In this document: positions 8,743 to 24,010 of the stretch, in pieces | How positions within the stretch are numbered: the first letter of the stretch is position 1 | Layout: the number at the start of each line of letters is the position of its first letter | From: Bacteroidales bacterium | GTDB lineage: Bacteria > Bacteroidota > Bacteroidia > Bacteroidales > UBA7960 | Assembly (NCBI GenBank): GCA_007134525.1 | Contig: SLKR01000003.1 | Coordinates: 1-37,006 of the forward strand | Length of the DNA: 37,006 nt | Direction: 5' to 3' | The notes under the pieces: generated by a model | What the model saw: only the letters and a program-made list of their open reading frames with translations | The model's database searches: none | Told to the model about the DNA's origin: nothing | Position numbers and translations under genes: made by a program

Positions 8743-10167
8743 ATGATCTCTTTTATTCTTAATGACAAAGAGGTAAGCACGGAAACAGGGCCGGGGAGCA
8801 GCCTGCTTGACTTCATACGCAGGGAGGCCAGCCTTCCCGGCACAAAGACAGGTTGCCGCGAGGGTGACTGCGGGGCATGCACCGTACTGGAGGGCAAACT
8901 CAAAGGTGGCCGTGTTGAATACCGTAGCATAGTATCGTGCCTGAGCCCCCTTGGTAATGCGCACGGCAAGCATATTGTCACAATAGAGGGGATCAACTGC
9001 AAAACCCTCAGCCCGGCACAGGAAGCTATTGTCAAAAACGGCGGCACCCAGTGTGGATTCTGCACGCCGGGTTTCATTTTGTCACTTACCGCATTCAGCC
9101 TCGACAGCCAGTCTCCTGAACCGGAAAGGGCCATTGAGGCCATGAGTGGCAATATATGCAGATGTACAGGTTATAAATCAATTGAAAGGGCAGCGGTATC
9201 TATTTCGCGGATACTCAAAAACAGGAACCCCGATAACCCGGCAGGCTGGCTGGTAAGCCAGGGTTTTCTTCCGCCTTATTTCACCTCGATCCCCGAAAGG
9301 CTTGCAGCCATAGAGGCGCCGACCAGAACTACAGGCAGGAGAAGGACAATTATCGGTGGCGGCACCGACATCCTGGTTCAGAAACCTGATGAAACAAGTG
9401 AGTCGGATACCCTTCTGCTGTTTGATGACAACGACCTGAAAGAAATTGAGATAAAGGATGGGATTATACATATCGGGGCATCTGTTACAACCAGTGAAAT
9501 TATGCACTCCTCTCTAATGAGAGCCAGGATACCGCGCCTTTATGAATACTTCAGGCTCATCTCCTCAGAGGCTGTAAGAAACATGGGCACCATAGGTGGC
9601 AATATATGCAACGCCTCCCCGATAGCCGACCTGGTAATCTTTTTCATGGCGCTCAACACCTCTGTTAGCATTAAGAACCTTGTAAGCAAACAGCAGCGCT
9701 CCCTGCCACTGAAAGCACTTTATAAAGGCTACAAGAAACTTGATATGCTTGAAGACGAAATAGTTACACACCTTACTTTCCCTGCCGCGCAGGGAAAGCT
9801 GCTGTTTAACTTTGAGAAAGTAAGCAAACGGAAGATGCTGGATATAGCCAGTGTAAATTCAGCGATGTCGGCAGGTATTAGGAATGGCCTGCTGGAAGAT
9901 GTCATACTGAGTATGGGTGGTGTGGCACCCGTGCCCCTGTATCTGGAAAAAACGGCCGGGTTCCTTACAGGCCGCAGTCCTGGTGTTGAAACGATCCTGG
10001 AGTGTAATTCCGTCCTTCAGAAGGAGATCTCACCCATCAGTGACATAAGGGGCAGCAAAGAGTATAAGCGCCTGCTGGCGCGTCAGCTTCTTGCAGCCCA
10101 TTTCATTTTACTCTTTCCTGAACATACCGATAAGGATCAACTAATAAAACGCCTGTCAGAGGCATAG
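8743..10167 (+). CDS. xdhA: Xanthine dehydrogenase small subunit (fused 2Fe-2S + FAD-binding domains)
   Basis: 474 aa; GCREGDCGACTVLEG, CGFCTPGFILSL, GNICRCTGYKSIERA (2Fe-2S domains), then IIGGGTDILVQ and RNMGTIGGNICNASPIADL (FAD domain). Confidence 0.9.
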   Translation: MISFILNDKEVSTETGPGSSLLDFIRREASLPGTKTGCREGDCGACTVLEGKLKGGRVEYRSIVSCLSPLGNAHGKHIVTIEGINCKTLSPAQEAIVKNGGTQCGFCTPGFILSLTAFSLDSQSPEPERAIEAMSGNICRCTGYKSIERAAVSISRILKNRNPDNPAGWLVSQGFLPPYFTSIPERLAAIEAPTRTTGRRRTIIGGGTDILVQKPDETSESDTLLLFDDNDLKEIEIKDGIIHIGASVTTSEIMHSSLMRARIPRLYEYFRLISSEAVRNMGTIGGNICNASPIADLVIFFMALNTSVSIKNLVSKQQRSLPLKALYKGYKKLDMLEDEIVTHLTFPAAQGKLLFNFEKVSKRKMLDIASVNSAMSAGIRNGLLEDVILSMGGVAPVPLYLEKTAGFLTGRSPGVETILECNSVLQKEISPISDIRGSKEYKRLLARQLLAAHFILLFPEHTDKDQLIKRLSEA

Positions 10168-10168
10168 A

Positions 10169-12442
10169 ATGAAAAACATCGACTCCATATCACATGTAAA
10201 GGGCAGATCGGTATATGTTGATGATATACCTGAAAGGGCCGGCACCCTCCATGCAGTTGTTTTCCACTCCCCTTGCGCGCATGGTATAATAAAGGGGCTT
10301 GACGTATCTGAGGCCTTGAATAACAACGGAGTACATGCAATACTAACAGCTTCTGACATCCCCGGAGAGAACCAGATAGGCGGGGTAATCCCGGATGAGC
10401 CACTTTTTGCAGACGGCAAGGTTGAATTCGCCGGCCAACCAGTGGCACTGGTAGTTGCTTCTGATGAAGCAACAGCAAGAAAGGCCAGAAGACTAATCAA
10501 AATTGAGGTTGAGGAACTTGAAGCTGTTACCGGTGCCAGGGAGGCATACAAAAAGTCAATGTTTTTGTCGCCTCCCGGTATATTCATTAGCGGTGACATT
10601 GAGAAAGCATGGAGAGAGTGCGAATATATATTTGAAGGGCAGTGTGAGTCAGGAGGTCAGGAACACCTCTACATAGAAGGGCAGGCCTCTTATGCGTATT
10701 TAAATGAGGACGGTGCGATCAGGATAATATCCTCGACCCAGGGACCTACCCACGTGCAGAAGACAGCTGCAGCAGTACTCGGGTTGCCAATGCACCGAAT
10801 TGAGGTTGATGTTACCCGTCTTGGAGGCGGTTTCGGCGGAAAGGAGGACCAGGCAACACCTTACGCATGCATGGCAGCCTTGGCTGCCATGCGTTTGAAA
10901 AAGGCCGTAAAGATTGTTTTGCACCGCCTTGACGATATGATTATGACAGGCAAGCGCCACCCATACAGCGCTGACTACAAGATCGGACTATCCGCCGGGC
11001 TAAAGATCATTGCATACCAGGCAAGGCTCTACCAGAACGGTGGTGCAGCAGCTGACCTGTCGCCGGCCATACTTGACCGCAGCCTGTTTCATTCGACAAA
11101 TGCATACTATATTCCGAATACGGAGGTAACTGCATACAGCTGCAAGACCAATCTGCCGCCCAACACTGCCTTCAGGGGCTTTGGAGGGCCACAGGCGATG
11201 TTCGTGATTGAGTCGGCAATAGCCAGGGCAGCACACGAACTTAAAACTGAAGCCAGAACAATACAGGAAAGGAACTTCCTCAGCAGCAAGGATCACTTCC
11301 AGTATGGACAGAAGGCAGCAGGCGCCAGCATTAGAAAATGCTACAAGCTGGCCGCAAAGGAGTTTCAGATAGAGAGGCTTTCAAAAGAGGTAAGGGAGTT
11401 CAACAGCAAAAACGGATTACGAAAAAAAGGCATAGCAATGATGCCCGTCTGCTTTGGAATTTCATTTACCAGCAAGCATATGAACCAGGCACGCGCACTG
11501 GTGCATATATATCAGGACGGGAGTGTAGGTGTAAGCACAGGGGCGGTAGAAATGGGCCAGGGTGTCAATACCAAGATAGTTCAGGTAGTGGCAAAGACTC
11601 TTGCCGTTGATCCCGGACTTGTAAGGATCGAGACCACAAATACCACAAGGGTCAGCAACACCTCCCCCACAGCTGCCAGCTCAGGTGCAGACCTTAACGG
11701 CAAGGCAGCACAGATTGCTTGTTCAAGGCTGGCATCACGACTCAAAAGGGCAGCAGCAAACAAACTGGGCAAGGAAATCAGGGATATTGAACTAAGTGGC
11801 AAAGGGATAAGGATTAATGGGAAATCTGCCGGCATCTCCTGGAAGGAGGCGGTAAAGTATGCCTACATGCAAAGGATATGCCTGTCGGAACAGGGGCACT
11901 ATTCAACCCCTGGCATTGATTTCAACAGAAGTATATCAAAAGGGCAGCCCTTTGCCTACCACGTATATGGCGCTGCTATTGTCACAGTCAATGTTGACTG
12001 CATCAGGGGCACATATGAAGTGGAAAGGGTAAATATTGTTCATGATTTCGGCAACTGCATGAACACTTTAATTGACATGGGTCAGGTGGAAGGAGCCCTG
12101 ATGCAGGGAATTGGCTGGATGACCATGGAGGAGTTTTCCTGGGATAAAAATGGACATATTCTCTCCAAGAGTCTTTCAACCTACAAGGTCCCGGATATCT
12201 ACTCAGCACCGGGTGAGGTGAATTGCATACCCCTGCCATCAAAGGGGCCGGCCAAGGCAATCCTTAAGTCAAAGGCAGTGGGCGAACCCCCGCTCATGTA
12301 TGGTATAGGCGTATACTTTGCACTGCAGAATGCCATTATTTCTTTCAATCCTTCATACCGTCCCGACTTTAATGCACCACTCACCCCTGAGAAGGTCCTG
12401 ATGCGCCTTTACTCTTCCCGGCCCGGGAAAAAGCGATCATAA
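10169..12442 (+). CDS. xdhB: Xanthine dehydrogenase molybdopterin-binding subunit
   Basis: 757 aa; RLGGGFGGKEDQ, NTAFRGFGGPQAM, EMGQGVNTK, KAVGEPPLMYGIG. Glu, Arg and Glu are present at the positions equivalent to the xanthine oxidoreductase catalytic residues. Starts 1 nt after the xdhA stop. Confidence 0.9.
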   Translation: MKNIDSISHVKGRSVYVDDIPERAGTLHAVVFHSPCAHGIIKGLDVSEALNNNGVHAILTASDIPGENQIGGVIPDEPLFADGKVEFAGQPVALVVASDEATARKARRLIKIEVEELEAVTGAREAYKKSMFLSPPGIFISGDIEKAWRECEYIFEGQCESGGQEHLYIEGQASYAYLNEDGAIRIISSTQGPTHVQKTAAAVLGLPMHRIEVDVTRLGGGFGGKEDQATPYACMAALAAMRLKKAVKIVLHRLDDMIMTGKRHPYSADYKIGLSAGLKIIAYQARLYQNGGAAADLSPAILDRSLFHSTNAYYIPNTEVTAYSCKTNLPPNTAFRGFGGPQAMFVIESAIARAAHELKTEARTIQERNFLSSKDHFQYGQKAAGASIRKCYKLAAKEFQIERLSKEVREFNSKNGLRKKGIAMMPVCFGISFTSKHMNQARALVHIYQDGSVGVSTGAVEMGQGVNTKIVQVVAKTLAVDPGLVRIETTNTTRVSNTSPTAASSGADLNGKAAQIACSRLASRLKRAAANKLGKEIRDIELSGKGIRINGKSAGISWKEAVKYAYMQRICLSEQGHYSTPGIDFNRSISKGQPFAYHVYGAAIVTVNVDCIRGTYEVERVNIVHDFGNCMNTLIDMGQVEGALMQGIGWMTMEEFSWDKNGHILSKSLSTYKVPDIYSAPGEVNCIPLPSKGPAKAILKSKAVGEPPLMYGIGVYFALQNAIISFNPSYRPDFNAPLTPEKVLMRLYSSRPGKKRS

Positions 12443-13011
12443 TCCCCCGGTGTATTGATGTTTGACAATACCTGAGTTCTGTGAGTTTCAGCAAGGCAGG
12501 TACCGGTACTTTCCAGATGTTCCCTTAATGTAAGATGGTATTTCCTGGCTCTTTTCAATCTCTTTGCAGCATTAGGTGATAAAAGTATCGGGCTGCCGTA
12601 TTTCCCCCCACATACAGGTCTTATGCATCCGTGCTCCCCTGGATAGGATGCGAGCCATTCAAGGATATCAGTGGTAATAAAGGGGTTGTCAACATTATGG
12701 ACAAATACGCTGTTTGCCAATTTACCAAGCGCCCTGAGGCCACACTGAAGGGAGAATAACCTGCCCTTTTCCGGGTAACGGTTAAGCACAATATCCACTT
12801 CCGGTGGCATTTCTGCAACATGGGCCTCAAGCCAGCTAACACCTTGATGGTTGACCACCATTGCGATCCTCCTGCAACCGAAACCGGAATAGACGCTGGC
12901 GCAACGTCCTGCAAAGCTAATTCCGTGTGCATATTCAAGCGAAAGCTTTGGTGTTTTCATCCTTATAGAACTTCCGGCAGCCAGTATAACTGCATCGAAA
13001 TCAATTTTCAT
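12409..13011 (-). CDS. mocA: MobA/MocA-like molybdenum-cofactor nucleotidyltransferase
   Basis: 200 aa; DAVILAAGSSIRMKTPKLSLEYA (NTP-transferase loop), VHNVDNPFITTDIL, GGKYGSPILLSPNA. Sits between molybdoenzyme genes; the mocA assignment versus other MobA-like proteins rests on context. Confidence 0.75.
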   Translation of the reverse strand: MKIDFDAVILAAGSSIRMKTPKLSLEYAHGISFAGRCASVYSGFGCRRIAMVVNHQGVSWLEAHVAEMPPEVDIVLNRYPEKGRLFSLQCGLRALGKLANSVFVHNVDNPFITTDILEWLASYPGEHGCIRPVCGGKYGSPILLSPNAAKRLKRARKYHLTLREHLESTGTCLAETHRTQVLSNINTPGDYDRFFPGREE

Positions 13012-13067
13012 CTTATTGAAAACATTTCATATTTTTGACAACAGGCAGCCTCCAAATCAAAAAGCAA

Positions 13068-16000
13068 ATGTCCGACAAACTCTTTCCCCTTCCTGTCGAA
13101 AAACTCCTCGGAATCACTCTGAATGAACTTGACAATAAAGGTAGTTATTTTGGTATACCAGGGGATATCTTCTATACGCCACCTGCAGGAAGGAAAAACC
13201 GCCTTGAAAGCAGAATATTCGACCACATAATTCAGACACCAATAGGCATAGCAGCCGGCCCGCACAGCCAGATGGCACAGAACATTGTTGCAGCATGGCT
13301 GATGGGAGCCCGTTATATTGAACTAAAGACTGTACAAACACTCGACAACATCGACGTTCCCAAGCCCTGTATCGACATGCAGGATGAGGGGTACAACTGT
13401 GAGTGGTCGCAGGAGCTGAGTTTGCGTCAGAGTTTTGATGAATACCTCAAGGCCTGGGTTATAATACATGTACTGAATCACCGCATGGGTCGCAGTGAAG
13501 GCCCCGGTGTAGTATTTAACATGAGTGCCGGATACGACCTTGAGGGTATACGCAGCGAGAACATGCGGTGGTTCTTTGGCAAGATGACCGTTTGCCCGGG
13601 CGAGATAGAAGAAAAAAGGGAAGCGTTAAAGGAAGTTTACCCTCCCATTTCTGATGTCAGCATTCCAGGAACCATTTCAGACAACATTACCCTGTCAACA
13701 ATGCATGGTTGCCCGGCCGGTGAGATTGAATCGATCGCCGGCTGGCTGATGGAGGAAAAAGGCCTGCACACTTACGTCAAGCTTAACCCAACCCTCCTCG
13801 GACCCGGAATACTCAGGGAAATTCTAAACGGGCAGCTGGGCTTCAAAACAGTTGTGCCCGACCAGGCATTCGAACACGATCTCAGGTATGATGATGCTGT
13901 AAGGATAATTAAGAACCTGAGGCAAAAGGCAGGGGAATGCGATCTTGAGTTCGGCCTTAAACTAACAAACACACTAGAAACACTTAACAAAAGGGAGGTT
14001 TTTAACAAGGGTGTAGATAAAGTATATATGAGCGGAAGGGCATTGCATCCACTGGCTGTTAAGCTTGCTTCCATTTTACAGGAGGAGTTTGAAGGTAGTT
14101 TGTCGCTCTCCTTCTCAGGTGGGGCAGATGCATTCAATACCGCTGAATTGCTGGCCTGTGGGTTCAAAACCGTAACATCATGTTCTGATCTGCTGAAGCC
14201 TGGCGGCATGATGAGGATACCACAGTACCTGGAACAAATTCACAAGAAAATGGCATATTGCGGGGCTGAAAGCACTGAGCAACTGGTAACAAAGTCATCT
14301 GATGGCAGATGCAGGGAAGAGGCCTTACGGAAAAACCTGCGGGAGTATTTCTCGAAAACCCTGTCTGGCAGTTACTATAAAATGGAGTTTATAAACCCGC
14401 CAAACATAAAGACAAATCGCAGGCTTGAATTATTTGACTGTATTTCTGCACCTTGTCGCGATACCTGTGCCACATTGCAGGATATACCCGAATATCTGCT
14501 TTCTGCATCAAATGGGGAGTTTCAGAAGTCGCATGAAACCATATTGCGTACAAACCCCTTTCCCTCGGTAACAGGGATGATATGCGATCACCTGTGCCAG
14601 GACAAATGCACAAGACTGCATTACGATGAGCCCCTGCTTATAAGGGAGGTTAAACGCTTTTGCTCCGGACAAAGTGAACCGGATATCTGGCCGGCACCCG
14701 ACAATGGCCTTAAGACAAGTATAATAGGTGCCGGCCCTGCCGGGCTCTCCTGTGCGTATTTCCTTGCACTGGCTGGTTTTTCGGTAGAGGTATTTGAAAA
14801 ACTGCCTCAGGCAGGCGGTATGGTACGGTTTGCAATTCCGGGGTTCAGGCTGAGCGATGAGGCTCTTGACAGGGATATTGAACGGATAAGGTCGCTTGGG
14901 GTAAAAATTCACTATAACCGTTTTGTTGACAGGGAATTCTTCAAAAAGATAAAGGAGGGATCTGATTTTGTATTTGCCGGCCCCGGGGCACCAAAATCAA
15001 TGCCCCTGGATATTGAAGGAATTGAAGCCCGGGGTGTGCTTGACCCGCTCTCTTTTCTTTTCGCGGTAAGGGAAGGCAAAAGACCTGAACCTGGCAGAAA
15101 GGTCGTGATAATCGGCGGGGGCAACACGGCAATGGACGCAGCCCGGACCGCCTCCAGGCTTACAGACGGAGAAGTAATAATAGTTTACCGGCGCACAATA
15201 AACCAGATGCCCGCCGACCAGGGTGAAATCAGGGCAGCAATGCAGGAGGGAGTAAGATTCATTGAGCTCTGCGGCCCTGTGGGCATCATAAAGAAAAAGG
15301 GCAGGGTTAAGGCATTAAGGGTGGTAAGAATGGAATTAAGCGGCAGGGATCTTTCCGGCAGGCCAAAGCCCGTCAGAATTAAGGGAAGTGAATTCGAAAT
15401 TGAATGTGATACTGTAATCCCTGCAATAGGTCAAAAGGTAGAAACGGGTTTTATAGCAGAGAACGATTTAAAGACAAAAGAAGGGAGCTACCTGAGCCGG
15501 CAGGCAAGGGTATTTACCGGAGGAGATGCAATGCGGGGCGCATCTACGGCTATAAATGCCATCGGGGATGGCAGGAAGGCAGCCGGGGAGATTTTTAGAG
15601 CAGCCGGCCTGAAAGCTGGGCCCGGCCAGCCTGTAAAGGAGAATAAACCGGATAACAGGGAGATTATGATCCGCAGATCCAGAAGAGAGTTTGCACCTGT
15701 TGTCCGGGAGATCACATCAGATAAAAGGAAGAGTTTCAACCTAGTGCAACTGCCACTTTTCAGGGAGGAAATAGTAAGGGAGGCAGGCAGATGCCTTCAA
15801 TGCGACGAGTTGTGCAATACCTGCGTTACCGTATGCCCCAACCTGGCAAATTATCCCTGGTCGGCAAGTGCTGCAGAATATCCGGTACATACTGTCATAC
15901 AGGATAAATACGGCAAGACACTAATTACTGAAAACGGCACTTTTTCAATAAAACAGAGCACCCAGATCCTGAATATAGCCGACTTTTGCAATGAGTGCGG

Positions 16001-16340
16001 AAATTGCGAAACCTTTTGTCCGACCGCCGATGCTCCATACAGGGTAAAGCCAAAAATACACCTTGGCATGGATTCTTTTAATGCTTCAGACGAGGGTTAT
16101 TACCTTAGTAAGCTTCAAAACAGAAATATCCTCTTATTTAAGGACAAAAACGGATTGACGACATTCTCTGACCATGGCAGCCACTATACATTTGAATCCA
16201 ACCAGGTTTTCATTGAACTTGACGCCAACACTTTCGGGATAAGAGAGGCAAAGGTCAAATTAAAGGGCAAATACAGTGCAGGTACGGAAAAGGCTGCCGC
16301 TATGCACATTTTACTTGAAGGGACAAAAAATTTATTTTAA
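13068..16340 (+). CDS. ygfK: YgfK-like putative selenate reductase / purine-catabolism oxidoreductase (DHOD-like N-terminus, GltD-like FAD/NAD(P) domain, C-terminal Fe-S motif)
   Basis: About 1090 aa; TPIGIAAGPHSQMAQNIVAAWLMGARYIELKTVQT, SIIGAGPAGLSCAYFLALAGFSVEVFEKLPQAGGMVRFAIPGFRL, VVIIGGGNTAMDAARTA, CNECGNCETFCPTADAPYRVKPK. Track start 13035 is TTG; ATG at 13068 preferred. Confidence 0.87.
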   Translation: MSDKLFPLPVEKLLGITLNELDNKGSYFGIPGDIFYTPPAGRKNRLESRIFDHIIQTPIGIAAGPHSQMAQNIVAAWLMGARYIELKTVQTLDNIDVPKPCIDMQDEGYNCEWSQELSLRQSFDEYLKAWVIIHVLNHRMGRSEGPGVVFNMSAGYDLEGIRSENMRWFFGKMTVCPGEIEEKREALKEVYPPISDVSIPGTISDNITLSTMHGCPAGEIESIAGWLMEEKGLHTYVKLNPTLLGPGILREILNGQLGFKTVVPDQAFEHDLRYDDAVRIIKNLRQKAGECDLEFGLKLTNTLETLNKREVFNKGVDKVYMSGRALHPLAVKLASILQEEFEGSLSLSFSGGADAFNTAELLACGFKTVTSCSDLLKPGGMMRIPQYLEQIHKKMAYCGAESTEQLVTKSSDGRCREEALRKNLREYFSKTLSGSYYKMEFINPPNIKTNRRLELFDCISAPCRDTCATLQDIPEYLLSASNGEFQKSHETILRTNPFPSVTGMICDHLCQDKCTRLHYDEPLLIREVKRFCSGQSEPDIWPAPDNGLKTSIIGAGPAGLSCAYFLALAGFSVEVFEKLPQAGGMVRFAIPGFRLSDEALDRDIERIRSLGVKIHYNRFVDREFFKKIKEGSDFVFAGPGAPKSMPLDIEGIEARGVLDPLSFLFAVREGKRPEPGRKVVIIGGGNTAMDAARTASRLTDGEVIIVYRRTINQMPADQGEIRAAMQEGVRFIELCGPVGIIKKKGRVKALRVVRMELSGRDLSGRPKPVRIKGSEFEIECDTVIPAIGQKVETGFIAENDLKTKEGSYLSRQARVFTGGDAMRGASTAINAIGDGRKAAGEIFRAAGLKAGPGQPVKENKPDNREIMIRRSRREFAPVVREITSDKRKSFNLVQLPLFREEIVREAGRCLQCDELCNTCVTVCPNLANYPWSASAAEYPVHTVIQDKYGKTLITENGTFSIKQSTQILNIADFCNECGNCETFCPTADAPYRVKPKIHLGMDSFNASDEGYYLSKLQNRNILLFKDKNGLTTFSDHGSHYTFESNQVFIELDANTFGIREAKVKLKGKYSAGTEKAAAMHILLEGTKNLF

Positions 16341-16346
16341 AAGGAC

Positions 16347-17828
16347 ATGATAGAATTCACAGACAGAATCACGAACGAAAAAGCCCGTGAAAATGCCATC
16401 AGGCGCTTCAGAGAAAAGGAGATAATACTTCCTCTGTTCAGCCAACAAAAGGATCCGGATCTTATACCCGACAAGGTTAAAGACAGGCTTAAAAACATAG
16501 GGCTTTGGGAGATACACCCTTTGAACCTATTCCGGATAAACTGGAAAAATGAGGCCAGAGAAAGCGGCGGGCTTTTTGGCAAGGTAAATTACTTTGAGAT
16601 ACCGCGCTCAATCAGCGGAGTGAAAGCCCGCATCCTTATGCTGGCCGGGAAGTGGTTCCCCACTGGCGCCCACAAGGTTGGTGCAGCTTATGGATGCCTT
16701 GCCCCCAGAATAATAACAGGAGAGTTCGACCCGACCTACCACAAGGCAGTCTGGCCATCAACCGGTAACTATTGCCGAGGCGGGGCCTTTGACTGCAAGT
16801 TAATGGGAAGCAATGCCGTTGCAATACTGCCTGAAAATATGAGCCGGGAAAGGTTTGACTGGCTCAGGAATGAAATCGGGTGTGAAGTAATTGCAACACC
16901 GGGTTGTGAATCCAACGTAAAGGAGATATATGACAAATGCTGGGAGATCAGGCGCACCCGTCCGGATTGCATAATACTAAATCAGTTTGAAGAGTTCGGC
17001 AATGCAGTGTGGCATTACCATATAACCGGAAATGCGCTCGAGGAGGTTTTCAGAATGGAGGGTTCCGGCAGGAGCCGTCTTGCGGCTTATGTATCGGCAA
17101 CAGGATCAGCCGGTACCATTGCCGCAGGAGACTACCTGAGGACAATTGCACCGGATGTCAGGGTAGTGGCCTCCGAGGCACTGCAATGCCCCACCCTTCT
17201 GCAAAATGGCTATGGAGGGCACCGTATAGAGGGCATTGGCGACAAGCATGTACCCTGGATCCACAATGTCAGGAATACCGATATGGTAACGGCCATTGAC
17301 GATGAGGACTGTATGCGTTTATTAAGGCTATTCAATGAAAAAGAGGGAGTTAACTTTTTGATGTCTGAAGGACTAAACCGCGAGGAGGCCGGCACCCTAC
17401 CCCTGCTCGGTATATCTGGGATAGCCAATATGATCTCGGCAATAAAGACTGCAAAATATTTAGAACTTGACAGTGACGATATAATCCTTTCTCTGGCAAC
17501 TGATTCTGCGGAGCTTTACAGTTCAAGGCTAATCGAATTAAGGGAAAACAAGGGTGTATATACTGAAAAACAAGCACTCAGGGACTTTGAGAAAGCTATA
17601 ATGGGAACTGCGACCGACAATTTGAAAGAGCTGAGCTACCGGGATAAAAAGGCGATCCACAACCTGAAGTACTTTACCTGGGTAGAACAGCAGCAAAAAG
17701 ATGTTGATGACCTGGACAGCCTTTGGTACGACAGAGGGCTCTGGCCAAAGATATTTGCCCAGATAGGTCGCTGGGACGAACTAATTGAGGATTTCAATGA
17801 GCGTACCGGAGTTTTGTCAGGGCTTTAG
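16347..17828 (+). CDS. PLP-dependent fold-type II enzyme (TrpB/cysteine-synthase-like superfamily) of unknown specificity
   Basis: 493 aa; KWFPTGAHKVGAAYGCLAPRI (Schiff-base Lys context similar to TrpB TGAHK), WPSTGNYCRGGAFDCKLMGSNAVAILPENMS (SxGN phosphate/carboxylate loop), YVSATGSAGTIAAGDYL (Gly-rich PLP-phosphate loop). Does not read like canonical YgeX/DAPAL by eye. Confidence 0.8.
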   Translation: MIEFTDRITNEKARENAIRRFREKEIILPLFSQQKDPDLIPDKVKDRLKNIGLWEIHPLNLFRINWKNEARESGGLFGKVNYFEIPRSISGVKARILMLAGKWFPTGAHKVGAAYGCLAPRIITGEFDPTYHKAVWPSTGNYCRGGAFDCKLMGSNAVAILPENMSRERFDWLRNEIGCEVIATPGCESNVKEIYDKCWEIRRTRPDCIILNQFEEFGNAVWHYHITGNALEEVFRMEGSGRSRLAAYVSATGSAGTIAAGDYLRTIAPDVRVVASEALQCPTLLQNGYGGHRIEGIGDKHVPWIHNVRNTDMVTAIDDEDCMRLLRLFNEKEGVNFLMSEGLNREEAGTLPLLGISGIANMISAIKTAKYLELDSDDIILSLATDSAELYSSRLIELRENKGVYTEKQALRDFEKAIMGTATDNLKELSYRDKKAIHNLKYFTWVEQQQKDVDDLDSLWYDRGLWPKIFAQIGRWDELIEDFNERTGVLSGL

Positions 17829-18743
17829 CCGGAATTTCTCCAGGAATGGCAACCAAACTGCCATAAACTCCCTGAAGTGAGTTTCCATAGGATTATGGCC
17901 CACCCCTTCTAAAAGCTTTAGCTCAGTGTCTTTCATTCTATCAAGCGCAGGCTTTTTGCCGGTATAGGGTACCCAGGAGTCAGCATCACCCCACACAGCC
18001 AAGGAAGGAACCTCAAGGTTTGATGCATCAAGGCTTTTCAGCTCCCTGTGGTAAGCAGGTGCAGACAATATGGCACGCATGGTTCCGGGCACAGAAAGGG
18101 GTTCGGTATATGCCCTGACCTGCCCGGGATTTGGTTTCTGCCCGTATGCCGATCTCAGAATCCTCTCAATACGCTTCTCATTTATAAGCCACTTTTGAGC
18201 AAATTCACCGATAATGAACCTAAGTGGCGATAACCTCAACAACAGGTTAACTGAATGGTCATTAAAAGGCAGTTCCGGAAAGAGAACGGCAGATACAAAA
18301 GTAGCACTATCAAGGTCTTCCGGAAACATAAGCGCATATGCCTGTACAATGCCTCCCCCCATGGAGTGCCCTGCCATATGCCAGCACCTTCCGGGAAAAT
18401 ATCTATGCAAAAACTCATGCAAACGCATTGCATGTGCAGTAAAAGACTGGTTAATCCTATGCGAGTTGCCACTGTAGCCAAAGGGCGGCAAATCCACTGC
18501 AATAACCTCAAAACCGGATCTCGCCAGTGAATCTGCAACCTGTTGCCAGGAGTATGTTGATGCACCAAAACCATGCACAAGAAAAACGCTCCCTGCATGG
18601 GATTCAACGGCTGGCTCCCAGTAGCGGTAATGAATTTCTGTCCCTTTTATCTCTGCAAAACAGCTGTTGGGAAAGGGATGTCCTGCACAACTGACTGCAG
18701 GAACACCAAAAAGCAGAAAAAAATAAATTGTCCGCAAATTCAT
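17817..18743 (-). CDS. Secreted or lipoprotein-like alpha/beta hydrolase
   Basis: About 308 aa; signal-like N-terminus MNLRTIYFFLLFGVPAVSCAG, oxyanion motif VFLVHGFGAS, nucleophile elbow AGHSMGGG, WGDADSWVP Asp, EGVGHNPM His. ATG at 18743 preferred over TTG at 18749. Confidence 0.82.
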   Translation of the reverse strand: MNLRTIYFFLLFGVPAVSCAGHPFPNSCFAEIKGTEIHYRYWEPAVESHAGSVFLVHGFGASTYSWQQVADSLARSGFEVIAVDLPPFGYSGNSHRINQSFTAHAMRLHEFLHRYFPGRCWHMAGHSMGGGIVQAYALMFPEDLDSATFVSAVLFPELPFNDHSVNLLLRLSPLRFIIGEFAQKWLINEKRIERILRSAYGQKPNPGQVRAYTEPLSVPGTMRAILSAPAYHRELKSLDASNLEVPSLAVWGDADSWVPYTGKKPALDRMKDTELKLLEGVGHNPMETHFREFMAVWLPFLEKFRLKP

Positions 18744-18837
18744 TGTCAAAATAAAAACCTGCCAATCCCAACAAAATTAGTAAAAACAGCCCCGGTTTGA
18801 TCAAAATTTAATAAATTGGCATTATAACTTGCTTTCT

Positions 18838-20109
18838 ATGGGATACCCCTCAAAAAAGAAGGAGTTCTGCTATTTATGCACAAGCTGTGGCAACAGCTAT
18901 AATGCTGCCGTAAGCGGAATAATTTATCTCTGCCCCGTGTGCAGCAAGGAAAATAAAGCCATGCAACCCCCGAAAGGAGTCCTGAAAACAGTATACGACT
19001 ACTCTGATCTGCGCAGAAAGATAGAATCTTTTGATGATTTCAAAGAAAACGGCTATCTGGACCTGTTACCAATAAAAAGCTTAAGCAGTCTTCCGCAGCT
19101 AAGGGTTGGCAATACCCCGCTATATTACATAAGCCAGCTTGATGGCCGAAAGCTCCCCTTTCACCTTTATATCAAGGACGACAGCCAGAACCCCACTTTT
19201 TCCTATAAAGACAGGGCCTCAGCAATAGTCTCGGCATTTGCGAAGGAACAAGGGATTAAGACAATTGTTACAGCTTCCACAGGTAATGCAGGCTCATCAA
19301 TAGCCGGGATCTGTGCCTCGCAGCGCCAGAATGCAATAGTCCTGGTTCCTGAAAGGTCGCCAAGGGCTAAACTATGCCAGATTATAATGTACGGAGCCCG
19401 GCTTTTGCCAGTAAAGGGCACATATGACCAGGCATTCGAGCTCAGTATCAAAATCAGCGAAACACACAAATGGTATAACCGCAATACTGCCTATAACCCA
19501 CTTACGATAGAAGGCAAGAAGACAGCCTCATTTGAGATATATGACAAAATGCGGCCGGCAAAGAGCTACAGAATATTCGTGCCCGTAGGGGACGGGGTTA
19601 TCATATCCGGCATCTATAAGGGTTTCGAGGATCTGCTCAATATTGGTATTATCGATGAAATGCCATTGCTGGTTGCAGTACAGTCAGAAGGCAGCGACAA
19701 CCTGATCAGGAATATCGGGTCCCATTCATTCAGCATACGCAAAAGCCTGACAATAGCCGACTCGATCTCTGTTGATATTCCCAGAAATTTCTACTACACA
19801 AGGCAAATGATAGAAAAGTACAATGGTGAGTGTATAAGCGTAAGTGATATGGAGATAATGTCAGCTTCATCGGTTCTGGCGAGGAACACAGGGGTTTTCT
19901 CTGAACCGGCCGCAGCAGCGGGTTTTGCAGGGCTGCTCAGGTATCACCGCGATGACAGGCTGAAACACGCCTCACATAATATTGTCCTGTCAACTGGAAG
20001 CGGCCTTAAGGACACCGGGCCGGTAGAGAAGCAGCTTGAAATCCCTTCAGGCCTTGAGCCTGATACTGACCCTGTCAATGATTTAATGAAGGCAGGCCTG
20101 AGGTACTGA
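18838..20109 (+). CDS. Threonine-synthase-like PLP-dependent enzyme with N-terminal Cys-rich (zinc-ribbon-like) segment
   Basis: About 423 aa; CYLCTSCGNSYNAAVSGIIYLCPVCS, RVGNTPLYY, NPTFSYKDRASAIVSAFAKEQGIKTIVTASTGNAGSSIAGICASQ (PLP Lys and SxGNAG loop). Track start 18829 is TTG; ATG at 18838 preferred. Confidence 0.82.
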   Translation: MGYPSKKKEFCYLCTSCGNSYNAAVSGIIYLCPVCSKENKAMQPPKGVLKTVYDYSDLRRKIESFDDFKENGYLDLLPIKSLSSLPQLRVGNTPLYYISQLDGRKLPFHLYIKDDSQNPTFSYKDRASAIVSAFAKEQGIKTIVTASTGNAGSSIAGICASQRQNAIVLVPERSPRAKLCQIIMYGARLLPVKGTYDQAFELSIKISETHKWYNRNTAYNPLTIEGKKTASFEIYDKMRPAKSYRIFVPVGDGVIISGIYKGFEDLLNIGIIDEMPLLVAVQSEGSDNLIRNIGSHSFSIRKSLTIADSISVDIPRNFYYTRQMIEKYNGECISVSDMEIMSASSVLARNTGVFSEPAAAAGFAGLLRYHRDDRLKHASHNIVLSTGSGLKDTGPVEKQLEIPSGLEPDTDPVNDLMKAGLRY

Positions 20110-20131: not shown

Positions 20132-22702
20132 ATGATCAAACTATCGGTTAATGGAGAAAACAGGAGTTACAATGGAAGTGGCGAAATCAGCCTGCTCCGT
20201 TATCTGCGTGAATTACTCCATATAACTTCTGCAAAGGAAGGCTGTTCAGGCGAAGGAGTTTGCGGAGCCTGCACCGTAGAGGTAAACGGGAAACCCAGTC
20301 TCGCCTGCCGTGTCTGGATGAAGGATTTGAACGGGTCGTCTGTGATCACCACCGATGGTCTGCCCGAACCTTTCAGGACCATGATTGGCAGAATGTTTGC
20401 CGAAAATGGTGCGGTTCAGTGCGGATTTTGTACACCAGGCTTTATCTTGAGATCCCGGAAGCTTTTTGAAAAAGATCCTCCTCCCACGCGCCTTGAAATA
20501 ATCCGCAATATAAACCCAAACCTCTGCCGGTGTACCGGTTATGTCAAGATCGTCAATGCAATTGAACAGGCACTGAACAATAAAAAAGAGATCACATTGG
20601 GCAATTTGCAGGGAGGTATCGGTATTTCGCTCACAAAATATGGATCAATTGAAACAGCGCTGGGTTCAAGGCAGTTTGTAAATGACCTTTACCCTGAGGG
20701 TATTCTGCATGCAGCCTTGAAATTCAGCGATCATCCCAGGGCACGGGTTACCGGTTCTGATATCTCTGAAGCTTTGTCCATTGAAGGGGTTATCGGGGTC
20801 TTTACAGCTGATGACATTCCCGGAGACAGGTATAACGGTTTAATTTTCAATGACTGGCCCCTTATGGTTGCAAAAGGGGAGGTAACCCGCTATATTGGTG
20901 ATGTTCTGGCGGGAGTGGTTGCTAAAGACAGGGAAACTGCCAGAAAAGCTGCCGAAAGTATAAAAATCAGATATGATGTGCTAGAGGGTGTTTTCTCCCC
21001 GGAAGATGCGCTGAAAAATACCAGCCCCCGGGTACACCCCGGAAGGTCAAACTTACTTGAAACATCCAGCATTCATTCCGGCAATCCTGAAAGGGAGTTC
21101 GCCAATGCTCGATGGATATCATCAGCAGTTTACCAAACCTCACTTATCGAACATGCATTCCTCGAATGCGAGGCAGCAGTTGCCATTCCTGAAGGCAAAG
21201 GCATCAGGGTCTACAGCCAGGGCCAGGGTGTATATGAAGACCGCAGGCAAATTGCGCGGATACTTAATACTGGGGAGGAGGATGTCAGGGTAAGCCTTGT
21301 CCCCAACGGAGGTGGATTTGGAGGCAAGGAAGACCTCAGCGTGCAGGGCCATGCGGCTTTATTTGCCTGGCTGCTCAAAAAACCTGTCAAGCTCAGCCTG
21401 GACAGGGAAGAATCAATAAGGATGCACCCTAAACGACACCCGGTTAAGATGGAGATAAAGCTTGCATGCGACAGCAACGGAAAGTTCACAGCCCTGCAGC
21501 TGGAAGCAACAGGTGATACGGGTGCATACGCATCCGTAGGCACAAAGGTAATGGAGCGTGTTGTGGGCCACGCCACAGGGGCCTATTGGATACCTTCAGT
21601 TGACATCAGGGCAAAAACCGTATACACGAATAATATACCTTCAGGTGCCATGAGGGGTTTCGGTGTACCTCAGATTGTATTTGCACTTGAAAGCTGTATA
21701 GACGAACTTTGTTACGCCGGAGGATTTGACCGCTGGCAGATCAGGTATGACAACGCCCTGGAAGAAGGTTCAAGGACTGCTGCCGGGCAAAGACTTGAAG
21801 GTGTGGGACTCAAAAAAACACTTCTGGCGGTAAGGGAGGACTTCCGGAGAGCCCGGTATGCCGGAGTTGCTTGTGCAATAAAGAATTCAGGAGTGGGAAA
21901 CGGCATGACAGACGAAAGCTCTGTAAAGATAAAGATAGTGTCAGAAGGAAGGGTGGAGATACACCATGGCTGGACCGAAATGGGGCAGGGAATAAATACG
22001 GTAGCCATTCAATTCCTTTGTCAGGAAACCGGAATACCTCCCGCAAACATAAAAGTAATAGTGGACACTACAGCGGGTATACCCACAGGTATGACAACTT
22101 CCTCCAGGGGAACGGCACTGCTGGGTAATGCAATTATAGATGCAGCCTCCGGACTCAAAAATGATCTGGTGGCCGCGGGTAGCGATGTTGAAGGAGCACT
22201 TAAAAACCTTACAGGAAGTGTTTACAGGGGCAAATACATATGCGACTGGACCTGCAGACCGGGAGAGAATGGCGGTGATCCCAAAATCCACTTTTCTTAT
22301 GGGTATGCCACCCAGGTTGCCATATTGGACAAAACGGGCAGACTAAGAAAGGTGGTGGCGGCACATGATGCGGGCAGGGTAGTCAACCCCCTGCTATTTC
22401 AGGGACAAATAGAAGGAAGTGTTCATATGGGAGTGGGTTATGCTCTTAAAGAAAACCTCCCCCTTGAAAAAGGCTGGCCGGATAGTTTTAAAATGAAGGA
22501 TCTGGGAATAATAAGGGCTAAGGAAATGCCCGAGGTTAAGGTTATAGCAGTAGAGGAGAAAGATCCCCACGGCCCTTATGGTGCCAAGGGCATAGGTGAA
22601 ATAGGAGTAGTACCTACCGCTGCTGCGGTTGCAAATGCATACTATGCATTCGACGGGGTGAAACGAACAAGCCTTCCCATTGAACCCATAAAAAAGAAAT
22701 AA
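20132..22702 (+). CDS. xdhD: XdhD-like (selenium-dependent xanthine dehydrogenase-type) molybdenum hydroxylase: fused 2Fe-2S and Mo-cofactor domains, no FAD domain
   Basis: 856 aa; GCSGEGVCGACTVEVNG, CGFCTPGFILRS, LCRCTGYVKIVNAIEQAL, then PNGGGFGGKEDLSVQG, GAMRGFGVPQIV, EMGQGINTVAIQFL, GAKGIGEIGVVPTAAAVANA. Domain order and length fit the XdhD family. Confidence 0.85.
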   Translation: MIKLSVNGENRSYNGSGEISLLRYLRELLHITSAKEGCSGEGVCGACTVEVNGKPSLACRVWMKDLNGSSVITTDGLPEPFRTMIGRMFAENGAVQCGFCTPGFILRSRKLFEKDPPPTRLEIIRNINPNLCRCTGYVKIVNAIEQALNNKKEITLGNLQGGIGISLTKYGSIETALGSRQFVNDLYPEGILHAALKFSDHPRARVTGSDISEALSIEGVIGVFTADDIPGDRYNGLIFNDWPLMVAKGEVTRYIGDVLAGVVAKDRETARKAAESIKIRYDVLEGVFSPEDALKNTSPRVHPGRSNLLETSSIHSGNPEREFANARWISSAVYQTSLIEHAFLECEAAVAIPEGKGIRVYSQGQGVYEDRRQIARILNTGEEDVRVSLVPNGGGFGGKEDLSVQGHAALFAWLLKKPVKLSLDREESIRMHPKRHPVKMEIKLACDSNGKFTALQLEATGDTGAYASVGTKVMERVVGHATGAYWIPSVDIRAKTVYTNNIPSGAMRGFGVPQIVFALESCIDELCYAGGFDRWQIRYDNALEEGSRTAAGQRLEGVGLKKTLLAVREDFRRARYAGVACAIKNSGVGNGMTDESSVKIKIVSEGRVEIHHGWTEMGQGINTVAIQFLCQETGIPPANIKVIVDTTAGIPTGMTTSSRGTALLGNAIIDAASGLKNDLVAAGSDVEGALKNLTGSVYRGKYICDWTCRPGENGGDPKIHFSYGYATQVAILDKTGRLRKVVAAHDAGRVVNPLLFQGQIEGSVHMGVGYALKENLPLEKGWPDSFKMKDLGIIRAKEMPEVKVIAVEEKDPHGPYGAKGIGEIGVVPTAAAVANAYYAFDGVKRTSLPIEPIKKK

Positions 22703-22714
22703 AAAGACCATCCT

Positions 22715-24010
22715 ATGGCCACAATACTCAGAAACGCAACATATATTGACTGGGAAAGTCTCAGTATGAAACAATGCAATATTATTGCCGGGGAAGGTAA
22801 GAATGCGGGTATAAGGTTTGTAGATAAAGTTAGTGATGAGATGACCGGGGTTAAAGAAACTTCCGTTATAGATTGCACCGGAAAATTTGTTACAAAATCT
22901 TTTGCAATAGGTCATCATCATGTATATTCCGCACTTGCCAGGGGAATGCCGAAGCCTTTGGGAGTACCATCTGACTTCAGGGCGATACTCAAGTATATCT
23001 GGTGGACCCTTGACCAGAACCTCGACCGGGAAAGCATCAGGCTCAGTGCACTGGCAACAGCCATTGAGGCTTTAAAGGCAGGATCCACATTTATTGTAGA
23101 CCATCATGCATCACCCGGGCACATAGGCGGATCACTTGAAACAATTGCCGGGGCATTTGAACAGGCCGGTATAAGTCATCTTCTCTGCTATGAAGTAACT
23201 GACCGTTACGGAACGGACAAGGCAGCTGAAGGGCTTGAGGAGTGCGATAACTGGCTTGAAAAAAACCAGGGCCTTGTAGGCCTGCATGCCTCTTTCACCG
23301 TAGGTAATGAGAGCCTTGAAAGAGCAGTAAGGCTGATGCAGAAGCATGGCAGCGGGATACATATTCATCTTGCAGAAGACAAGTACGACCAGAAACACTG
23401 CCTGCAGAACTATTACCAGCAGGCAGGCCACCGGCTGAATGAAGCCGGGGTACTGGACTCACCAAAAACCATTCTGGTACACGGTCTTCATCTTAACGAT
23501 GGGGAGAGGGATATGATTCGTAAAAAACCCTGCTGGATAGCACAGAATATGGAAAGCAACCTGAAGAACAAGGTTGGCTGCTTTAGTTCCAGAGGCCTGG
23601 GCGATAAAATTTTCCTGGGTACTGACGGCATGCACGGCGATATGCTGAGAAGCATGAAAGCCGCCTTCTTCGCAGGCCAGTTATACGATGATATTAATTT
23701 CACTTCGGCATACCAAAGGCTGAGGAACATACACAGATACATCAGGCAGAATAATTTTTCCGGAGACGGGGATAACAATCTTATAGTTGTCGATTACAAC
23801 AGCGCTACTGAAGTAAATCCGGATAACTTTGCAGCACATCTGATTTTCGGGATCTCCTCATCCCATATAAGGTATGTGATTGCAGAAGGCAGAGTTGTTG
23901 TAAAAGATGGCAGGCTGCAGACCCTGGATGAGGAAGCAGTACTCAAGGAGGCAAGAAAATACGCCGGCATGCTATGGAAAAGGATGTCAGCATCACATAA
24001 AACCATATAA
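22715..24010 (+). CDS. ssnA: SsnA-like amidohydrolase
   Basis: 431 aa; [91 protein letters not shown]. Closely parallels E. coli SsnA motifs (VIDHHASPAYIGGSL, LHIHAAEDLYD, LALGTDGIGSDM). Confidence 0.87.

Follow-up and report, generated by a model that had tools for sequence, protein, structure and literature searches.

A long-branched subfamily of CysK-lineage PLP enzymes is linked to the reductive uric acid pathway and, with a ThrC-like partner, may replace YgeX

Introduction

Which enzyme is encoded by the gene directly after ygfK in the Bacteroidales contig SLKR01000003.1, and what part might it play in the reductive degradation of uric acid? The question was raised by a first-pass annotation of the window (the whole stretch of 37,006 nucleotides analysed here), in which the product, here called PLP493, had been described as an uncharacterised fold-II PLP enzyme and predicted to act in the pathway of ygfK because of the close adjacency of the two genes. 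YgeX converts 2,3-diaminopropionate (DAP) to pyruvate and ammonia. In reductive uric acid degradation, yanthine is produced by XdhD, reduction and ring opening are due to YgfK and SsnA, and the route continues through HyuA, YgeW and YgeY to DAP, from which YgeX forms pyruvate (PMC12507026; commentary PMC12990295). This pathway, whose biochemistry was not resolved until 2025, is relevant to gout and to the purine balance of the gut. No paper describing PLP493 was found in a literature search of partial coverage.

Gene neighbourhood

The PLP493 reading frame starts with ATG, encodes 493 amino acids and follows the end of ygfK (position 16340) after a gap of six nucleotides. It is surrounded by the following genes:

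8743..12442, + strand: xanthine dehydrogenase (XDH), small and large subunits (TIGR02963, 342 bits; TIGR02965, 805 bits; both below cut-off)
12409..13011, - strand: MobA/MocA-like nucleotidyltransferase, probably for molybdenum cofactor maturation (PF12804, above gathering score)
13035..16340, + strand: ygfK, homologue of the flavin-dependent yanthine reductase, directly upstream of PLP493 (TIGR03315, 832 bits; cut-off 835.3)
16347..17828, + strand: PLP493, CysK-lineage fold-II PLP enzyme (reading frame, profiles, alignment, model, Foldseek, tree)
17817-18749, - strand: alpha/beta hydrolase between PLP493 and the ThrC-like gene
18829..20109, + strand: ThrC-like PLP enzyme, partner of PLP493 and predicted second lyase (pairing in relatives, changed NPxR motif)
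20132..22702, + strand: selenium-dependent-type XDH, candidate uric acid reductase (TIGR03311, 878.9 bits, above the cut-off of 830.45)
22715..24010, + strand: ssnA aminohydrolase homologue (PRK07203, 357 bits; TIGR03314, 315 bits, cut-off 455.5; both below the curated cut-offs)

Since the scores of ygfK and ssnA lie below the curated cut-offs, the naming of both genes rests partly on context. In the window's group, the gene order is ygfK - PLP493 - ThrC-like gene - XDH - ssnA. Genes for YgeY and YgeW were located on contig C8 of the same genome and a gene for HyuA on C87, while YgeX was not detected in this genome at E 1e-20; as the assembly is 96% complete, its absence is likely, not certain. 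PLP493 also shares loci with HyuA, YgeW, YgeY and YqeA. Clustering is not constant, however: for 22 of the 80 best loci, out of at least 592, the fragment examined was devoid of recognisable genes of the pathway. The alpha/beta hydrolase gene was present only in the closest of these 80 loci (L067). By eye, the segment 23907-35041 contains a carboxylase, enoyl-CoA hydratase and acyl-CoA dehydrogenase block like that of leucine breakdown, followed by apparent mevalonate pathway genes (HMG-CoA reductase, GHMP kinases), and two adjoining genes at 249-2907 resemble lysine/alanine dehydrogenase and saccharopine dehydrogenase.

Conserved motifs and terminal extensions

Of 58 relatives, 19 have a PLP493 homologue with 54-86% identity over most of the length, and conservation at 53-86% identity extends across many phyla, which shows that PLP493 is not a chance reading frame. 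A scan of genome contigs yielded at least 592 confirmed relatives. The best 80 of these, which were analysed, are labelled Bacteroidetes, Aminicenantes, Elusimicrobia, Planctomycetota, Chloroflexi, Clostridia and others, although single labels may be wrong because nearly all are metagenome-assembled genomes. Within the protein, four segments are relevant:

16347..16571, + strand: N-terminal extension, residues 1-75, ahead of the CysK-like core (alignments, model)
16674..16676, + strand: codon of K110, the lysine of PTGAHKVG predicted to form the Schiff base with PLP (role by fold family)
16758..16784, + strand: substrate loop S138-T139-G140-N141-Y142-C143-R144-G145-G146 (loop motif PSTGN[YF]CRG in homologues)
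17538..17825, + strand: C-terminal extension, approximately residues 398-493, helical (past the CysK profile matches, conserved, ordered in the model)

The lysine context reads FPTGAHKVG (K110) and the substrate loop PSTGNYCRGGAFDCKLMG. H109 and K110 as well as C143 and R144 are invariant in the alignment of 39 homologues. The loop motif was present in all 80 best homologues of at least 592 (PSTGNYCRG in 72, PSTGNFCRG in eight), a uniformity that is partly built in, as WPSTGN[YF]C had served as a seed of the scan along with another peptide. The long form alone has Cys143-Arg144, which sets it apart from a short form found in Clostridia. The loop had been called atypical at first reading, with a Cys directly after the Asn; the loop itself stands, and the position has to be corrected, as Cys143 lies two residues after N141. 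The long extensions reported at both ends were borne out. Alignments to PDB and NCBIfam entries begin at residue 75 or later, curated CysK-type models cover only residues 94-397 approximately, and the AlphaFold2 model has ordered helices both before and after the CysK-like core. Both extensions are real.

Family placement

In NCBIfam, CysK, CysM, CBS and SbnA were recognised as distant relatives of PLP493, and no model reached its own cut-off. The scores were 106 bits for TIGR01139 (cut-off 351) and 97 bits for TIGR01136 (cut-off 344), too low for membership in CysK/CysM. Pfam PF00291 matches the protein. Sequence and profile searches of the PDB led to cysteine synthases and CBS, none of them a close relative. 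The AlphaFold2 model, computed with 39 homologues, has a mean pLDDT of 92.1 and a pTM of 0.92; Foldseek retrieved CysK, beta-cyanoalanine synthase, Fn1055 and CBS (best E 5e-15), with target TM values mostly around 0.8 and 18-28% identity. In a tree of 34 sequences, PLP493 and its Clostridial sister form (455-459 aa) make up a clade with 100/99 support on a long branch. The side of the tree holding this clade together with CysK and CysM has 99/97 support, which places PLP493 by descent on the CysK/CysM side, while YgeX and the ThrC-like proteins lie on the opposite side with IlvA and TdcB.

Profile, fold and tree results thus agree that PLP493 represents a new subfamily within the CysK/CysM lineage, set on a long branch and having terminal extensions of its own; it is neither TrpB nor YgeX. 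Its description as an uncharacterised fold-II PLP enzyme holds; no confident match to a characterised family of unrelated function appeared. The initial impression that it does not resemble cysteine synthase has to be qualified: cysteine synthase and CBS are its closest families, although its scores lie far under their cut-offs. Similarly, the TrpB-like lysine motif TGAHK is present, but a wider likeness to TrpB was not found, and membership in TrpB or TrpB2 is rejected: no TrpB model matched any of the 39 members, and in the tree E. coli TrpB, though long-branched, is placed opposite the CysK/CysM side. A divergent YgeX is also rejected because of the separate clade in the tree and a profile match of only 47 columns; in NCBIfam, PLP493 itself had no YgeX family match at 1e-3, and two of the 39 members had one at approximately 1e-3. 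As a further candidate, 2-amino-4-ketopentanoate thiolase (OrtB) was considered; no model for it was among the matches listed, and a literature search of partial coverage yielded nothing of use on it.

Co-occurrence across genomes

Among the relatives of the window's organism, in which PLP493 and YgfK were assigned from match lists by score and position, PLP493 was present in 20 of 59 genomes and YgfK in all 20 of them (Fisher 4e-12), and the ThrC-like gene occurred in these 20 and in one further relative (Fisher 8e-15; n = 59). YgeX was found in five of the 59, never together with PLP493; this exclusion is not significant alone (p 0.16) and reaches p 0.02 within the YgfK carriers. All these p-values overstate independence because the genomes share ancestry. 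A ygfK gene (locus L169) followed by 1.4 kb of contig had neither PLP493 nor ygeX downstream, and neither was found elsewhere in that genome, which is 91% complete.

Beyond the relatives, 50 PLP493 carriers from many phyla were searched. SsnA was detected in 46 of them (E <= 1e-40), in 44 at 270 bits or more, with weak matches in G073 and G085 (153 and 201 bits); in the control panel for this search, four of 14 known genomes gave a signal and only E. coli passed the cut-off. The ThrC-like gene was detected in 43 of the 50 carriers (E <= 1e-30), a few weak matches of which could be ordinary threonine synthases. Eight carriers possess YgeX, and six of the seven without a ThrC-like gene belong to these. 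In a sample of the class Clostridia (341 genomes), 26 genomes contained SsnA at approximately 290 bits or more, a threshold set after seeing the list: six of these had PLP493, 15 YgeX, none both and five neither (Fisher 0.002 for exclusion). All six PLP493 carriers of the sample had SsnA. As to the five genomes with neither gene, G196 has a ThrC-like gene paired with the short form, G171 and G219 contain similar clusters (in G219 with the ThrC-like gene at the contig end), and those of G314 and G331 look like clusters of the PLP493 type truncated at contig ends.

PLP493 hence co-occurs genome-wide with markers of the reductive uric acid pathway, and its membership of this gene set is strongly supported. 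The pathway link predicted from the adjacency to ygfK is upheld by the co-occurrence with YgfK and SsnA, and a lack of conserved linkage to ygfK, which would have spoken against it, was not observed among the relatives.

The ThrC-like partner

The ThrC-like protein matches PF00291 and scores just above the threshold of TIGR00260 (168.7 versus 167.1). In threonine synthases, the Arg of the motif NSVNPxR binds the substrate phosphate. The protein of the window reads NRNTAYNPLT and departs from the motif of solved threonine synthases, and in all 34 readable sequences of 42 homologues NPxR is changed to NPx(T/L/M) with loss of the Arg, which makes the automatic name "threonine synthase" doubtful. 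A CxxC pattern is located near the N-terminus. A housekeeping threonine synthase is unlikely in view of this change and of the absence of the gene from 38 of the 59 relatives.

The strict pairing in the relatives could mean that the two proteins assemble into one hetero-oligomer with a single catalytic subunit, and in several loci (e.g. L072 and L078) the two genes touch or overlap. We regard such a complex as quite improbable, as the lysine and Asn-loop motifs are kept by both proteins in nearly all members, which suggests that both are catalytic, and as PLP493 also occurs without its partner. The pairing would also suit a sequential route, in which PLP493 swaps the beta-amino group of DAP (for example by water to serine or by sulfide to cysteine) and the ThrC-like enzyme eliminates the product to pyruvate. 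The CysK lineage is built for beta-replacement; on the other hand, such a route would be longer than the one-step YgeX reaction and would not be needed by carriers that have YgeX and no ThrC-like gene, so that we consider it rather unlikely.

Exchange with ygeX

Two members of the window organism's family (G033 and G024) have the gene order ygfK - ygeX - selenium-type XDH, in G033 followed by ssnA and hyuA, and genome-wide no match to PLP493 or the ThrC-like protein at the thresholds used. In these genomes, ygeX thus occupies the very position of the PLP493/ThrC-like pair in the window's group. A corresponding exchange was observed in Clostridia, where one locus (L198) reads ygeX-ygeY-ygeW-yqeA and another (L186) ThrC-like gene - short PLP form - ygeY-ygeW-yqeA. 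According to these gene orders, one gene was exchanged for two in two settings. A replacement of YgeX by two genes is thus well supported in two groups, though it is not universal, given the eight carriers with YgeX and a locus (L064) with YqeA-YgeW-YgeY-YgeX-PLP493, i.e. the complete E. coli-type set plus PLP493. A further exception is YgfK-PLP493-YgeX (L051). As PLP493 can accompany the complete set, it has its own task. Another short relative of 459 aa with the loop STGNFGIG (L187:8823-10202) lies beside apparent heat-shock regulator and clp genes; it may have another role there, since this Clostridia genome also has YgeX.

The same gene orders bear on the idea that PLP493 uses cysteine or selenocysteine as the source of sulfide or selenide with which the cluster's molybdenum hydroxylases are matured. 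That the first Foldseek match was the hydrogen-sulfide-producing Fn1055 and that the clusters often include XDH, MocA and YqeB genes would fit; however, G033 and G024 retain the selenium-type XDH although no PLP493 was detected anywhere in either genome, and the gene exchanged is that of a DAP lyase, which leaves this function very improbable. An earlier step, with PLP493 acting beside YgeY on albizziin (2-amino-3-ureidopropionate) or an isomer by beta-elimination or racemisation, would explain its presence next to the complete YgeW-YgeY-YgeX set, and there is disagreement about when the ureido group is cleaved (PMC12507026; PMC12990295). Against this, many PLP493 loci also contain YgeY, as does the window's genome, and it is ygeX, not ygeY, that is exchanged. 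We judge this step improbable as well, even though albizziin has the free alpha-amino group.

Discussion

A PLP enzyme needs a substrate with a free alpha-amino group. Albizziin and DAP are the pathway compounds of this kind (PMC12507026; PMC12990295), and DAP is the likeliest substrate because the PLP493/ThrC-like module stands at the place of YgeX. We give an even chance to the explanation that PLP493 serves anaerobic, reductive uric acid degradation as a dedicated enzyme and, together with the ThrC-like enzyme, replaces YgeX and acts on DAP. Judging by family analogy, the STGN loop, Gln213 and Lys110 match the carboxylate- and PLP-binding positions of CysK, so K110 would hold PLP, and the S138-T139-N141 loop and Q213 would bind the substrate carboxylate. 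PLP493 would take the alpha proton from DAP, after which the beta-amino group would be expelled or the alpha carbon inverted. The CysK-type core would fit this chemistry, and the C-N elimination or replacement suggested by the first-pass annotation is plausible given that the pair occupies YgeX's place. What counts against this main explanation is the Clostridial short form, which lies at the same operon place without Cys143-Arg144, together with the carriers that also have YgeX, such as the one with locus L064.

E. coli YgeX takes both DAP isomers (PMC12507026), and the ureido intermediates have been suggested to be R-configured (PMC12990295). It is conceivable that two stereospecific enzymes, or a racemase and a lyase, could split this work. 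In the preferred version, PLP493 would handle the D-isomer as racemase or D-DAP lyase and the ThrC-like enzyme would be the L-DAP lyase, the two dividing what YgeX does alone. That YgeX is replaced in just this way, by two fold-II enzymes of which one (the D-DAP racemase or lyase) descends from CysK and the other (the L-DAP lyase) from threonine synthase, is a tentative proposal. It is not favoured by the YgeX proteins coexisting with PLP493: a loss of the loop Asp was looked for in them and not found, and the Asp of TDGNHG, which we take to serve D-DAP, is kept. The missing Cys143 of the Clostridial short form also speaks against it.

On the basis of the sequences, a second, widespread ending of the reductive uric acid pathway appears to be present. 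If so, the last step of uric acid degradation would be solved in a second way in Bacteroidota, Clostridia and further phyla, PLP493 would be a marker gene where the operon is scattered, and there would be a concrete test for, and an indication of, the configuration of the intermediates. A published survey scored YgeX by the general domain PF00291, and Bacteroidota are absent from its main text (PMC12507026); since both window proteins match this domain, the survey could have counted genes of this kind as YgeX.

Comparison with known systems

Like the reductive uric acid cluster known from E. coli and C. difficile (PMC12507026), the window contains homologues of ygfK, ssnA and XDH. The hyuA, ygeW and ygeY genes of that cluster are located elsewhere in the window's genome, which has PLP493 and the ThrC-like gene instead of ygeX. 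With YgeX, PLP493 has the pathway, the operon place and a short GNxxRG loop similarity in common; what separates them is the tree lineage, the lack of the Asp in the PLP493 loop and the presence of two genes where YgeX is one. TrpB has only the TGAHK lysine context in common with PLP493, and this by eye. CysK, CysM and CBS are nearest by profile, PDB searches, Foldseek and tree, and have the same fold-II core, STGN-type loop, Q-F motif, phosphate loop and D-S-x-x-Y motif. PLP493 differs from them in its identity of approximately 18-28% to solved members, its scores far under the cut-offs, TGAHK in place of their usual K-D/C-R lysine context, CRG in the loop, the long extensions at both ends and the tie to uric acid genes.
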